From positions 14,075,557 through 14,139,556 of the forward strand of contig NC_092320.1 in assembly GCF_036785885.1 (NCBI RefSeq): DNA of 64,000 nt, written 5' to 3'. The DNA is from Coffea arabica. Taxonomy: Eukaryota > Streptophyta > Magnoliopsida > Gentianales > Rubiaceae. The position numbers were made by a program, and so were the translations under genes. Of the stretch, positions 42,201 through 49,800 are shown one piece after another. Position 1 is the stretch's first letter; each line of letters begins with the position of its first letter. A model generated the notes under the pieces. That model did no database searches. It was not told the origin of the DNA and worked only from the letters and a program-made list of their open reading frames with translations.

Positions 42201-43137
42201 GCAGAAATCCCGAACTACAGATTAGTTTTCATCGACACATAAATAATCGCTACATTAATAAAGCCAACATTTTTGCCATCGTATTTAATTCAGGTGAACG
42301 AGTTGAGTAAAATATTGCACATATGCTCGCATAAGGTATCTTAAGGTCGGCTTATACCAATCAAACAGCAATATTCATGCGTATATTATGAAAAAAATAT
42401 ATTCACATTTTTATAGCGTCAAGGAATCAAGACAAAGAAGCATTTTTAGTTCCAGAATTGATCAATGAACCAACAAAAGAGCCCTATAGTGTCATAAAAA
42501 TTTGAACTTTGGACTCTCATGATCAACAACAGGTAAAAAAGTTGATGCAAATTTCTAAATTTCCGACGAAGTCTCAAACTTGATGCATCAGGAATAGACC
42601 AAAAAAAAAAAAAACTCCAATCCAACTAATTGATCAAAAGCCATGTTGCAAAGCAGTACCAAAAGAAGTATTCATAAGTACAATCAGTTGAGCAGCATCC
42701 AGACTAACAAATTTTCATTCAAGGATGATTATACACCAGTCCAAAACTAACAACAGATGAAACTAAATTCCAAGAATCCAACCAAAAATTCATCAAACAA
42801 CAAGAAAAGCATTGAGCACAGCTGAAAATCAACCTACACTGAGAACTACTACTGTTTAGCAAGTGTGATTGAGTTGGAGGACTTAAACCTTAGGGGGCAC
42901 AATCTGATTAGGCTGAGTAAGGCCAAGAGTGGCATGAGCAATGGAGTGGGCCATCCGTTTTGCCCTTCTTGAAGAATAATAACACAAGGGTGCAACAGAA
43001 ACCGAGAAACCCCAGAGGGGCTTAGATCGAAATCTCGTAAAAACCGAGGAACAAGATGATGCAGAAGTATAAGAAGTGGAAGCAACTAAAGTAAGAGAAC
43101 AAGAGGCTAAAGATGCTGATGCTCTGATGGCGGCCAT
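36265..43137 (-). CDS. LAP: Leucine aminopeptidase, M17 family, probably plastid-targeted
   Basis: Hexameric zinc/manganese exopeptidase releasing N-terminal residues from peptides. Exons in transcription order: 43137-42889, 40740-40326, 40220-40026, 39805-39580, 39450-39324, 39179-39084, 38351-38274, 37595-37535, 37211-37024, 36393-36265; 1,764 nt, 587 aa, fully in frame. Exon 1 encodes a Ser/Ala/Arg-rich N-terminus expected of a chloroplast transit peptide, ending [13 protein letters not shown]. Metal and catalytic residues are all present: K356 and D361 in GKGLTFDSGG, D381 in MKFDMGG, and D441, E443 and R445 in the M17 signature NTDAEGRL. Length equals tomato and Arabidopsis LAPs. Intron 1 (2,148 bp) contains a dead duplicate of exon 1. 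Intron 7 contains a 54-bp tandem repeat. A TATA-like TATAAATAG lies only 22 nt before the start codon. Confidence 0.97.
38632..38739. repeat. 54-bp tandem duplication in LAP intron 7
   Basis: Two adjacent 54-bp units begin at 38632 and 38686, each starting GACATTTTGTAGCTTTTATC. They are nearly identical. They lie in intron 7 (37596-38273 is intron 7's neighbour; this repeat is between exon 7 at 38274-38351 and exon 6 at 39084, so strictly in intron 6). No coding role is implied. Confidence 0.75.
41345..41625 (-). pseudogene. Dead duplicate of LAP exon 1 inside intron 1
   Basis: The - strand is clearly homologous to LAP exon 1: [24 protein letters not shown] and MAHSIA are all recognisable. 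The start codon is lost (TTGCAGCCG where the live copy has ATGGCCGCC). The run after MAHSIA is frame-shifted by inserted bases, and in the original frame PNQIVPPK now contains a TAA. It therefore cannot serve as a first exon of the same protein. It also keeps a diverged copy of the AAG/GTTTAAGTCC splice donor. Confidence 0.8.
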
Positions 43138-43167: not shown

Positions 43168-45007
43168 CTAATAGAAGTCTTGAACAAAAATCGTATCATC
43201 AAAAATGGAGAGTGTGATGTGGGGTTGGGTTGCTCAATGGGCTCAGTCACCAATGCCTGTTGATGTTAGCTCCAGCACCTTTCCTATCAGACTATGATTA
43301 AAATTGATTTTTGATTTGGTTTTTCCCCTTATCTTTTTGGGATTTTGCTAATCTGTTTAAATTATCCATTGGTAGAGTTCTTTATTTTGAATCTTGGCTT
43401 AGTATTAGAGTATTTTACTGCTATATGCTATTGAATGTTATAAATTGTTCATCTATCAACATTACGAAAATGAAAAAGAATAATAACGCTAGCTTGTTCT
43501 TTTTCTTTTCTTTTTTCTTTTGAGCAAATATGCTATCTTGTTCATTAGTTACCTTCACATTTTAATTGTTTGAGGTATATTTTAGTACATCATATTATTA
43601 CGATGCCTTTGCCACGCTTTTTCCACAACCAAAATTGTTGCACTTTTTTTATTTTGACTTGTAGTAATAAAATTATGTTTATTATAAAATAAAAAGGTAA
43701 TTTTGTGTCCTTTCTTCGATTCTTATATTATCCTAATAACGTAAAATCAGGTGAAATTATTGCATAGAGTATCTCATTAATTTCACAAGTTGACATAGGT
43801 AAAATTCACTAAATTTTTGAAATCGTACGGAAAATAAACCTGAAAAAATAATATCCTAACCCTTATGTGCAGGAATTGAATCTCCAAAATTACTATTTTG
43901 TGGTAAATAAGGACGAAACAACATTAATCCTACCAAAAAAACAAGAATGAATAATATTGAACGCAATGAGGGAAAAACACCTTTCAACTTGAAATTTTGA
44001 CAAAAAGAAAAAAACAACATTCTAGCCCCTTCAATTTTGTAATAATTCCAAAATAAGACGTATTGTTCATCGATCAAAGATTGAATCTTGGTTTAATGGT
44101 TTTATATTCTTGAATGCTACATTGTTATCTACCAGAGATAGAGATACAAAATGATGCTATCTTGTTGATGTGTTACGCTTTAAATTATTTTTTGTTGTAC
44201 ATTAGTATCTCACAATACATATGCCATGATTTTATCACAAGCATAATGATTTTATTTCTTATTTTTGAAGTTTTAGCGTAAGTATATCTTGCTTATCCAG
44301 AGGGAAGAACGGTAATCTCTCTGTTTGGATTGTAAATTATTTGAGATATTTTTACTGTAGCACTTTTTGTGATGTGATGTATGTGAGATAAAAAGATAAT
44401 TGGAAAGATAAAAAGGTGTGTTGGAAATTGTAATGATGATGTAAACAAATAAATTTTAACAAATAATCCTCTGTCCAGTTAAACTTTTCATTAAATACAA
44501 CTAGATAAAAGCAAATTATTTGTATTTTGAATCTAGTCTAGCAAATCTTGAAGGAAAATGATGTTAGAACTCCTCAAAAAATCTCAAAACACTAATTCCT
44601 TTTACATTTAAGGAGTGTTTAAAAGTTTTTTAAGAAGTGCTAATATTCATTTCCTTTCTTAAAACATGAAATGGGAGATAATGAAACCAAATAGTACAAG
44701 AGTTAGATACAAATCATTAGGGGGACTCAAACCATAGCCTTGGCTATGACTTCTTCTCAGGTAACTCACCGAAATATAGGTAAGACGTCCGTCCGTCTGA
44801 TATGATAGCGATTAGTGAAAAACTGACAATCGACATATGACTGGGTGTGGATTAGTGAGAGAGTAAAAGATTATTAGAGTCATTAATGTATTTATAACAT
44901 ACTAATGGACTATTTATGTAATTCTAACAAATGTGTATTCTGTTCCCAGGCACAACCACTGCTTGCTCGGTTGGGTTGGTCCGCGTCCACGGGGAAATGG
45001 GAAACCA
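43168..45007. other. Intergenic region between LAP and the Pack-MULE
   Basis: The LAP upstream region, including the outer end of the duplicated unit, a third partial copy (about 44095-44255) and a MITE-like segment (44315-44455). No gene is supported; the remaining DNA is AT-rich. Confidence 0.55.
44315..44455. repeat. MITE-like segment
   Basis: Begins CTGTTTGGATTGTAAATT, then TTTTTACTGTAGCACTTTTT and GATGTGATGTATGTGAGATA, and ends near GTAAACAAATAA. The middle phrase recurs in decayed form at 23500-23760. The style matches abundant small dispersed repeats of plant genomes, but no target duplication was found. Confidence 0.4.
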
Positions 45008-45319
45008 AAGAAAGAAGGGCAAATTATCCAATTGGCCCTTTAACTCTTTGTCTAGTTAAAATTAAGTCCCTCATCTATTTTTTACTGATTTTAAGCCCTC
45101 GAACTTGTAAAATGGAAAATTCGTGGCCCTTTTAGCCAATTTCTCCGGTTTTGCAACCGGATGACCAATTCACACGAACGTCATGTGCTTCTTTCAAGGG
45201 CATTTTTGTCCTCATATTCTAAGCAAAAAGGCCACACATAATCCACATTTCTATTTGATTTCCACAATATTTTCGTTCCATAAATTAAACAAATCTCCAC
45301 ACTGCTATATTCCTTCGTG

Positions 45320-45823
45320 CTAAAAGAAATCAAATTCCAGGTAATTATCAAAGCCTTTTTTATCTGCAGCAGCTGCAGCCTTAGCAGCCTTCTCACTTGT
45401 TGAAGCTGCTGGAACAGGTATCCTCTCAAACTCAACTGGCTTTGGGATCTCAGGGGGGGTAGCACAGCGGATGAGTGCCCAATTAACTCCTTCAAAGAAA
45501 GGGTGCTGCTTTATCTCAGTTGCCCCTCTTTTGTACGCCAACCGATGCTGTGGTTCTTTCACAAGCAATCCCCTAATAAGATCCCTTGCAGCAAAACTGA
45601 CAATAGGTGAATCAGGAAATCTGAGGGGCTGTCCCACAACATTGAACAACGTCGCTCGATTTCCAGATCCTTTAAATGGCGTTTTACCAAACAAAAGTTC
45701 GTAAAGAAAGATCCCAAAAGTCCACCAATCTACAGCGCTTCCGTGACCCTCGCCTTTGATAATTTCAGGCGCCAAATATTCATGGGTCCCTACAAATGAA
45801 ATAGAACGTGCACTAGTTGGTGA
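45320..45823 (-). pseudogene. Captured C-terminal fragment of a D6PK-type AGC kinase
   Basis: Reading on the - strand, the fragment starts near [20 protein letters not shown] and runs unbroken to a natural ending NYLEFDFF and stop. It contains kinase subdomain VIII ([11 protein letters not shown]), [27 protein letters not shown]-type subdomain X/XI sequence ([11 protein letters not shown]), [18 protein letters not shown] and the AGC tail. The Gly-rich loop, catalytic lysine, HRD and DFD motifs are absent, so it cannot be an active kinase. Wording matches plant AGCVIII kinases such as D6PK, which phosphorylate PIN auxin carriers. The open frame continues upstream to 45961 through antisense of the neighbouring fragment, giving a possible 213-aa chimeric protein. 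Transcription is unknown. Confidence 0.85.
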
Positions 45824-45839
45824 TTGACCCGGAGATTTC

Positions 45840-46395
45840 CGATGCTGACCCGAATTTCGGGATTCATGAAGGAAACGACGGAATGGAGCCGACCCATTTG
45901 GATCTTGATCTGAATCTAGGGTTTCTCGGAGAGCCCACTTCGGCAAATATGGAAAATTCAAGGTTCGTAGCTGAAAATTTTGAGGGTGGGGACCATTTTG
46001 TAACCGGGTTGCGAGTCGTGGATATCGGGTCGGAATCGGATTCTGATATAAACCATGACGTTGAGATTGATTTTAGTGCTGACGATGATTATATAAGTGA
46101 GGGTGATGATGATCCAAGCCTTAGGCTCTGTTGGGATTATTTTCAGATTGAGGATCATAGAGAAGTTAATGAGGATTTTGAGTGGGAGGAAGTGGATGAA
46201 GGAGTTGATGAGAGAGAGGTTCTGAGCATGTTTCTGGATGATGATGACATGCCGGTGATGGCCCGGGAGGAGAGTGCAGATGTATCTAGGAATTTGGACT
46301 GGGAGGTTTTGTTAGATGTGCAGAATTTGGAAGCAATCCCCGAGAATGTGACAGAGACGGCCATGGGATTGCGTGGGGGTTGCGCAGGGAAGAGT
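45840..46395 (+). pseudogene. Captured N-terminal fragment of a RING E3 ligase (CIP8/RING1-like)
   Basis: The + strand has an open frame 45817-46452 (211 aa). It is strongly acidic ([26 protein letters not shown]) and contains EDHREVNEDFEWEEVDEGVD, DEREVLSMFL and NLDWEVLLDVQNLE. These phrases resemble the region before the RING finger in plant CIP8/RING1-type ubiquitin ligases, from memory. The RING finger itself is missing; after about 46390 the frame runs into the terminal inverted repeat and stops. It is therefore a partial copy without ligase activity. It overlaps antisense with the extended kinase-fragment frame at 45817-45961. The family call is less certain than the kinase call. Confidence 0.65.
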
Positions 46396-46663
46396 AAGGG
46401 AGGTGAGGGAAATCAAATAGAAAGGTGGACTATGTGTGCCCTTTTTGCTTAGAATATGAGGACAAAAATGCCCTTGAAAGAAGCACATGGCGTTCGTGTG
46501 AATTGGTCATCCGGTTGCAAAACCGGAGAAACTGGCTAAAAGGGCCACGGATTTCCCATTTTACAAGTTCGAGGGCTTAAAGTCAGCAAAAAATAGATGA
46601 GAGGCTTAATTTTACCTAGACAAAGAGTTAAAGGGTCAATTGGATAATTTGCCCAAGAAAGAA

Positions 46664-46891: not shown

Positions 46892-49800
46892 ATGGTGGCA
46901 ACAAATCTCAAAGCAGAGACAATGAAGCTGATGGAGCGGAGGAGCGGAATTGAGGCTGAAATGAACGTCATCATAGAAAATCTCTGCCGTCCCGGTGGCC
47001 CCGGTCTGTCCGGCAACCTCCTTGATTCCGAGGCATGCTTTTATTTTTGGAAATTTCTGGATTTAGAGTTATTTGCTGATATCATTTATTGATGAATTAA
47101 GGTAGTAATGTTTTTATTATCTTGCAGGGATTTCCAAGGGCTGATATCGATATTCCTGCTGTGAGAGCTGAACGTCATAGGCTTGCAGGTAAATATGCTG
47201 CATAAATGGTTAGTATGGTCAATTCTCTTCCTTTTTAAGTTCAGGTGAGTAAATTTTGGTGTGCAAGTGATGTAATTATGAGCAGAGCAAGATTAATCGA
47301 GGGTTTGTGATGGGCTAATATCTCAGTGGGATTCTTACTAAGTGGAGCTTGAGTTCTTGGGAAATCTTGCCCCAAATTAAACCGATAATGTGGCTAAATG
47401 ATGTTGCTTGTTTTAAGTTCATAGAAGTTTTTGGTAAATCTTAAGTTACTTCAACTAGGAGTTGAGCAGGATGTTTGCATCTTGAATGAGATGTGGAACT
47501 TGGAAAAAGTTAGCAATTTTTGCGAGTTTTCTGCACAAGAGAGACAATCTGTTTGTCTAAGAAGATAGTTATTTGGTTGCCTTTATCTTCATTACCATGC
47601 TGCGGTTTGAATTCTAAACTGGTCATGAAAATTGGAAGCAGTAAATGGTAGTCTCAGGTTTTGAAGAGACACGAGTAGTTATTGTAAAGCAAAGGTTTTT
47701 TGTGCAAGGCAATATCATACCTGGCTTTGATGTGATGAAACTGTTTAATCAAATCTTGGGAAGTGTTATATTTGGTTTTTGCTTTCATTTTTGTGGTACA
47801 GCATTTATGACAACTATGGGAAGGTGGAAGTTTATGTGGAAGAAATGGTGGTATACCCCCACCTCCTTTCCCAATAGTTTGTGCTCTCAAGTAACTCAAC
47901 TGTATTCTCTATTGGACCCTGCTCTGCAGTCTTGATTATTGAACTTGTGAATAAGATGATGAGATTATGGAAGGTTCTTTATTGTTCTGTTTCAGTTTGA
48001 CATGGACTATGATGTGGTTAAGTTGTTTGTATCTACCCTTCTAGATGAAAAGTTGAACCTCTTTCTTAATCTGAATAGTATCTCTGAAAGAACCATGTAG
48101 TTTTGTTCAGTTGATCTTCGTCCGGTAAAGGGCCACTTGGATTGAATCTACATGGTTACTATTTGGGAAAACTGTTAGTATATTTGATGTAAGTTCATTG
48201 AGCAATGTCTTTTGGAAACCTAACGGTTTTGTCATGTTGATGCTATGATGGCCATCATTGTGCAGTTTTTTCATCTTGCTCAGCAAGATTGTGAGTTATC
48301 TCTCTGTTTGTTTTTCAGAGCTACGCAACGATCATAAAGATATCACAGAGAAAATAAACCAAAATATTCAAGTTCTGCATTCAGCAAGGCTTACTTCTAC
48401 GACAGCTGAAGATACAGGTAATCATTTCAATTTTATGTCTTTCTTGCTGTTCGCATTGATCAAGCTTGTGAATGAGTTATGTTGTTTATTTTTAGTATTT
48501 TAATTTCCAATGTCAACATTTTTTTCCAAAAACTTATTGTTATTGACTCATCAATTGGTGTAATTTTCTTATTCTTGCATTCTGCGTCAATGTTGAACAA
48601 TTGATTGCCTTGTTTGAGTCACCTGAAACTTTATATATTTCACAACTGAGAATCTTAGTTAATGCCAAGGGGCTTCTGCCCCCTCTTGGATTGTACTATG
48701 TCATGGTCCCAACAGTTGCATGTATTTCTGCTATTTGTTGCCAGTTACTCAGCTAACAATATTTTATGTACTTTTTAAGGTGATGCAGGGATGATTGATT
48801 TAAATCCTTCTGTAAATTCTGCCACAAGGGATGCATCAAGGGCCATGGATGTTGATGTAGTTGTAAGCAAGCCCTTCGCAGTGGTTGATGAAATAACAGA
48901 AGGTTCTCCAGCTGCAGAAGATGGTGTACAACTTGGGGATCAACTTGTGAAATTTGGATGTGTGGAATTTGGTGAAAACCTGTTGCAAAGGCTTGCTGCT
49001 GAAGCGCAGACAAATCAGGGGCGTGCAATACCTGTGGTGGTTCTCAGGCAGGGTGCTCGGGTTAGTTTAGCAGTAACACCAAGACCATGGCAGGGACGTG
49101 GCTTATTGGGGTACGTTCAAACTTTTTCTTCCTTGCTTATGGACCTCTTTCCTGTCTAAAATAGTTCTAGCTATTTAAAATTTTTGGCCTGAAGAATCAT
49201 CAACCTCATTATGGTTGGTGAAAGCTTTAATTTCTCAGTAAATGCAAGAAGCGAATATAGCTGTTTGTATGTTACATCTTTACCAAGCTTCTTTCTTTCC
49301 AACTCCCTGCCCTTCTTTTGTTCTCTTTTCGTGAGAAAAAATGAAAATTATTGTTGTGTTTGCCAATTTTTTGAGATGGATTGTACATTTTCAGATTTGA
49401 CTCTCTTCTGGAATCCCATGAGATCGATTTTAGCAAGTTGTATGATTGTTGCTTGGTTCCGGGGTATCTAGGATGTATGCGGTACCAAAGAAGGTTGAGA
49501 ACAATTTAAATGCCACCTTTCCTACCTCCTTTCTCTGAAGAAATAGGGACTCTGGGAAAATATTTTTCTGATAAAAAAAAATGATTTTTGGTAGGTCAGA
49601 AAAGCCCAAGTAAACTAAGACTTGGGGCATGATAGTGCTGTAGTGTTCAAGATGCTAACGAGTTCTGTCCTTCCGGTCTCATCTTTTTATCTGCTTCTAT
49701 TTGTCCAACTAGATATTGGACAGGGTCATAAGGACATTTAAAAAAATGCGCGGAGAGTTTGTCTCTTATGGCGTTCAAAAGGCTGGCTTTTTGAAAGAAT

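Follow-up and report, generated by a model that had tools for sequence, protein, structure and literature searches.

A coffee Pack-MULE carrying fragments of three unrelated genes apparently acquired in successive layers

The window, that is the whole stretch of 64,000 nucleotides of Coffea arabica analysed here, corresponds to contig C11:14075557–14139556, and the genome searched comprises 1,197,963,845 bases in 131 contigs. Between two genes it holds an element of 1,638 bp (window positions 45017–46654). On the left is a leucine-aminopeptidase-type gene on the minus strand with Peptidase_M17 domains, the start codon of which, as deduced from the open reading frame, is likely at 43137. On the right, outside the element, is a host gene on the plus strand (46892–49159), joined from several open reading frames by inference, with a PDZ-type domain (PDZ_2, E 9e-06, just under the cut-off); we take it to be probably a homologue of the 26S proteasome non-ATPase subunit 9. 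Its ATG at 46892 lies 229 bp downstream of the element. In the left flank there is also a short repeat (44319–44477, about 160 bp), probably a MITE or similar, for which the genome contains dozens of matches at 92–97% identity.

As stated in the first-pass annotation, which was made from the letters of the sequence, the element has inverted ends of equal length and a perfect 9-bp target duplication. The duplication, AAGAAAGAA, is read directly at 45008–45016 and at 46655–46663; the arms, of 247 nt each (left 45017–45263, plus strand; right 46408–46654, minus strand), are 94.7% (about 95%) complementary and have 1,144 nt between them, the element starting with GGGCAAATTATC and ending with GATAATTTGCCC. 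At the homoeologous site on C12 the right flank (97% identical) and the left flank (87–95%) are joined without the element, and no match to it was found in the 9.5 kb fetched around this site; the insertion is thus absent from the homoeologue in the assembly analysed. The target sequence is single at this empty site, although repeats of A, G and T in the local sequence make the one copy only approximately readable.

The two ends and three host fragments account for the whole of the element, without a transposase. From left to right, the first is an AGC-type kinase gene fragment of 563 bp (45259–45821, minus strand), comprising the end of the kinase domain, the stop codon at 45320, which is the same as in the parent ORF, and 3' sequence. 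It matches Pfam PF00069 (Pkinase, 74 bits, minus strand) and aligns with L020 on C18 at 98.8% without gaps and with L021 on C17 at 97.5% with one 9-bp gap. We would describe it as AGC-like, the closest solved structures being CBK1, S6K and SGK; "D6PK-like" was the label given in the first-pass annotation. The second is a RING-ligase gene fragment of 534 bp (45818–46351, plus strand), an N-terminal coding part that is 98.9% identical over 534 bp to L022 on C7 and 98.7% identical to L023 on C8. Its parent is an intronless gene with a 435-aa ORF and a zf-RING_2 domain (PF13639) at residues 374–415; the piece ends before the RING finger, and accordingly no domain match was found in it. Both pieces had been recognised, on these strands, from the start; the count of two donors does not hold, as a third piece, of 86 bp, is present at 46350–46435 on the minus strand and extends into the right arm. 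This is a scar of the 5'UTR and start-codon region of a purF-type amidophosphoribosyltransferase (ATase) gene, 93.1% identical over 87 columns to L051 (2252–2166) on C4, and the parent gene, on C3 and C4, has a 560-aa ORF (TIGR01134 purF, 509 bits).

Each of the three donors has its own chromosome pair (kinase C17/C18, RING C7/C8, ATase C3/C4), and the two copies of each gene are on neighbouring contig numbers, which matches the expectation for an allotetraploid. The kinase and RING pieces are therefore not neighbours at their native loci, and the view of a Pack-MULE holding pieces of two unrelated genes head to head is upheld for these two. Judged by its structure, the 1.6-kb element is a non-autonomous Mutator-like element (Pack-MULE). 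Pack-CACTA-like hybrids have CACTA ends and a 3-bp target duplication, and such an identity is ruled out by ends beginning with GGGCAAATTATC and a duplication of 9 bp. The arm length fits the long terminal inverted repeats of Mutator-like elements, which a passage of PMC4858842 puts at usually 100–500 bp; the 8–11 bp target duplication at independent insertions expected for them is matched by 9–10 bp at 11 of the 12 RING-bearing insertions; and the host fragments expected of a Pack-MULE have parents elsewhere in the genome, located here for kinase, RING and ATase. With the kinase and RING coding pieces both truncated, the cargo probably does not form a working gene; the most likely role of the element is that of passenger DNA and of a promoter-region insertion.

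A search of the element against the whole genome, as the first-pass annotation had proposed, found a sister copy on C3 and ten copies matching the window element in its right half only (RING layer, no kinase); 40 of 414 candidates were scored, and the family counts are lower bounds. In total 29 elements with these ends were delimited, L024 and L038 being fetched without delimitation. The sister, L009 (C3:32606271–32607908), contains all three layers at 99.2% identity behind a different target duplication, and is the one other three-layer copy found among the scored candidates. In both chimeras 563 bases of kinase replace the left part of the RING piece, and apart from the chimeras the candidates scored show the kinase piece at its two parent loci alone. 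Bases 232–1280 of the RING-only copy L010 track the RING parent on C7 or C8 at 97–99%, starting upstream of the parent's start codon and reaching into the N-terminal coding part, with a single deletion of 85 bases (a spliced intron was rejected for this gap, there being no GT–AG); L010, the RING-only copy tested, also retains the ATase scar. The other nine RING-only copies are 98.4–99.1% identical to L010 end to end, except that the alignment of L019 stops before the broken end. In other elements with these ends the ATase piece is the sole cargo. Because these one-layer elements and the ten two-layer copies persist alongside the chimeras, the captures can be put in order, and the cargo is, on this comparison, three layers from three unrelated genes (ATase, RING ligase, kinase) acquired successively. 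Of the eleven RING-bearing insertions with target duplications, ten have perfect ones and one has a single mismatch, while L019 has lost its right end and has none. All 11 differ, so no insertion found looks common to a homoeologous pair. At the C4 site homoeologous to L009 there is no element match in the 1.7 kb fetched, but only one flank aligns. A tree groups both chimeras together (branch support 86/88 as drawn and 92/89 in the group table) with two shared changes, but the tree is weak, nine of its 11 inner branches being open and none starred.

The sites that could tell the donor homoeologues apart are mixed for both pieces. The kinase piece agrees with C17 at four sites (one beside an indel) and with C18 at two sites and the 9-bp indel; the RING copies agree with C7 at three sites and with C8 at one site and a 2-bp indel, two more differing sites lying in the deleted part. 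Against the parent, the RING frame shows 2–4 synonymous and 0–4 non-synonymous changes and no stops in nine of the 12 copies (L013, L016 and L017 were left out for their indels), numbers too few to judge selection.

The arms have a history of their own. The innermost 28 bp or so of both match the ATase stretch, the left one (45236–45263) weakly (86% over 29 columns of the ATase 5' region, E 0.012), so that captured sequence appears to have become part of the arms. On the kinase side the left arm carries a 16-bp inner extension; among 20 elements aligned, the window element and L009 are alone in having it on the left, all other occurrences being at right arms. The left arms of the two chimeras also have private changes in common that are absent from the other arms aligned; the left arm is not cleanly assignable to a left- or right-arm lineage, so that a step of arm swapping is uncertain.

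The first-pass annotation described the ends as near-identical and took this as a sign of recent activity, which the family does not bear out: at 94.7% the arms of the window element are the least alike of the 12 RING-bearing elements, the other 11 having 95.2–98.7% (97.2% in the C3 sister) and the 29 elements together 87.3–99.0%. Dating by the two arms was rejected in view of this spread and of the separate history of the chimera left arm. Better evidence of youth is given by the empty homoeologous site and by the comparison with L009, from which the window copy differs at 13 of 1,638 positions, seven of them in the left arm. Between homoeologues, the donor region of the kinase (C17/C18) diverges by about 4% over 8,997 bases and that of the RING gene (C7/C8) by 2.3% over 5,271 bases; the chimera thus probably spread after the two homoeologous sets had separated. 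None of the 13 differences falls within the 554 kinase-only positions (45264–45817), for which the probability by chance is about 0.5%; gene conversion is possibly involved, and the three-step history proposed below gives no account of it.

Descendants of the ATase element show at least six further captures by internal replacement, namely RING, kinase and four others. One of the latter, in L027, arose independently of the kinase capture as the second replacement within the RING lineage, its donor being an EMP70-domain gene (C11/C12); in the others the ATase backbone received a CAP-domain gene (C12/C11), a gene with a GUB_WAK_bind-like domain (28.0 bits against a cut-off of 29.4; C4/C3), and an unnamed locus on C16/C15. 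A 695-bp insert in L037 and L038, an element pair on one contig (C2), was rejected as a gene capture, being a repeat with 40 matches listed, these two included; in L037 it occupies element positions 847–1541, nested in an ATase-type Pack-MULE, and the 38 further matches listed are 94–96% identical. In two other pairs, both members are flanked left and right by identical stretches of 15 bases, which points to segmental duplications: L039/L040 (C2:40.615M and C2:40.780M), with an offset of about 165 kb, and L046/L047 on C46, with an offset of about 73 kb. An autonomous partner with these ends, coding for a MURA-type transposase, was sought among matches to the transposase domain PF10551, 150 of 2147 candidates genome-wide being scored, and was not found at the two loci fetched, which lack such ends in 5.8 and 5.3 kb. 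Among the 150 scored loci there are open frames of equal length, 733 aa (at least 32) and 823 aa (at least 8), for example at C17:1025706 and C7:7833896, which suggests recently active MULE families.

At its inner border the arm extension shares TTTCC with the kinase piece (45259–45263, 5 bp), and kinase and RING pieces share TGGT (45818–45821, 4 bp), both runs being read off the sequence around the junctions. Over the six replacement events, exact overlaps of 2–6 bp occur at eight of the 12 junctions (5, 4, 2, 2, 3, 3, 3 and 6 bp) and filler of 1–9 bp at the other four. Random joins, simulated for the two kinase junctions only (20,000 trials each), gave at least 5 bp in 0.57% and at least 4 bp in 1.65% of cases; overlaps of 2–3 bp, which make up five of the eight, are not striking. 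The comparison of family members shows that the cargo was built up in three steps, and we consider it reasonably probable that these proceeded through break repair with template switching, along the lines of the gap-filling and FoSTeST models of PMC8277862. An element captured the 5' region of the ATase gene; a descendant then lost nearly all of this cargo to a 1.05-kb RING-ligase piece and spread to at least ten sites; and in one RING copy 563 bp of the kinase gene replaced the left half of the RING piece, the resulting chimera being found at two sites, one of which lies in the window. At each replacement an internal break or gap would have been refilled, the growing strand crossing over at a short stretch of identity to a host gene elsewhere in the genome and later returning to element sequence; both ends would thereby have stayed intact and the element still mobile by transposase supplied in trans. 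Because the inner part of the chimera's left arm is of a type otherwise belonging to right arms, a right arm may have been copied to the left side during that same replacement. The repair event itself is deduced from the junctions, no intermediate being seen at a single locus.

Microhomology at junctions would be expected also from end joining after deletion, and the short matches suit a history in which the kinase gene received two closely spaced insertions of related elements, the inner parts of both were deleted, and the outer ends together with the host DNA between them formed a new element. Such a hybrid model is described for Arabidopsis Pack-CACTA in a section of PMC13317346. It would directly explain the right-type inner sequence of the left arm, an inverted neighbour giving its right end, and does so equally well as template switching. 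However, every one of the six donor genes would need to have taken two insertions at a distance of 0.5–1 kb from each other, whereas no arm match (E below 0.01) was found at any of 12 loci of the seven donors in the 3.6–9 kb fetched for each, and both homoeologues of the kinase and of the RING donor run continuously across the fragment without element sequence. On balance we regard this origin as unlikely.

Considerably more doubtful is a recombination between two Pack-MULEs, in which a kinase-bearing element exchanged with a RING element to give the chimera. The private changes shared by the chimera left arms, unseen in other aligned arms, speak for it; but of 414 candidates, the 40 scored show no kinase piece outside the chimeras and the two parent genes, and a junction of 4 bp is no homologous exchange. 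That the structure is not a transposon product at all, and reflects a segmental duplication or an assembly artefact with inverted ends by chance, has a probability close to nil. Chance is excluded since the same ends bound many elements; the 9–10 bp target duplications at 11 of 12 RING-bearing insertions, all different, and the empty C12 site argue against duplication, in favour of which there is nothing for the window copy, although the pairs L039/L040 and L046/L047 do resemble plain segmental duplicates. Nor do the window copy and the C3 copy show shared flanks beyond the target duplication, and the end repeats are not part of a larger segmental duplication, an outcome that the first-pass annotation had named as contrary to capture by a MULE. 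Stepwise replacement through break repair and template switching remains our preferred reading.

That annotation further held Pack-MULEs to be known mainly from rice, and a compact eudicot example combining two donor genes in opposite orientation to be unusual. Earlier work does not support this, and the rarity in eudicots is overstated: a table in PMC3310237 lists 46 Pack-MULEs for Arabidopsis, 220 for tomato and 2853 for rice, and in the portion available of PMC8903248 elements with several donor loci are already reported. Multi-gene and eudicot Pack-MULEs being known, what is new is the preserved three-step capture series in coffee. The word "Coffea" does not occur in the available text of the latter Pack-TYPE survey, and among the entries listed for Pack-MULE and MULE literature on Coffea, titles and opening lines name no coffee Pack-MULE; a literature search on stepwise or multiple acquisition yielded nothing useful. 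The coffee element is like the Pack-MULEs of rice, Arabidopsis, tomato and maize in its long inverted ends, 8–11 bp target duplications, host fragments and lack of a transposase, and differs in having three ordered donor layers with one- and two-layer relatives in the same genome. As far as the sections seen of PMC3310237 describe it, tomato PM-ZIBP is likewise a multicopy eudicot Pack-MULE family with a captured fragment, and the acquired sequence can become part of extended ends; the tomato ends are tandemly duplicated, whereas the coffee ends are single and the cargo is replaced. For animal Pack-TIRs, the relevant passages of PMC8277862 set out gap-filling/FoSTeST models and report microhomology of 1–36 bp (median 2 bp) at one breakpoint at least in 67.6%; short-microhomology joins, multicopy forms and distant donors are common to both systems, the coffee case being distinguished as a plant MULE in which one lineage recaptures repeatedly. 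In those passages the authors leave undecided whether the models apply to plant Pack-MULEs. Arabidopsis Pack-CACTA, as portrayed in the part seen of PMC13317346, is also a TIR element shuffling coding DNA; it belongs to another superfamily, and tandem insertions next to each other, from which it has been proposed to arise, have left no trace in the coffee donor stretches fetched.

The mode of gene pick-up by Pack-MULEs is called not understood or perplexing in passages of PMC3310237 and PMC8277862, and the present family offers seven donors and base-resolved junctions, with ancestor-like and derived forms side by side. The two homoeologous chromosome sets can be used as empty-site controls, and a comparison with the diploid parents could date each capture step. 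For the PDZ-domain gene, an effect of the insertion on the promoter is possible: lying 229 bp upstream of its start codon on C11 and being absent at C12, the element is a candidate cause of unequal homoeologue expression. More tentatively, and short of an even chance in our estimation, the lineage as a whole might be a serial cargo exchanger, in which the ends and a stub by the right end persist while the interior is repeatedly overwritten from unlinked genes by microhomology-guided template switching, one arm being copyable to the other end. If this were true, the layers would record the order of capture, and the mechanism of capture by plant Pack-MULEs would become testable event by event.
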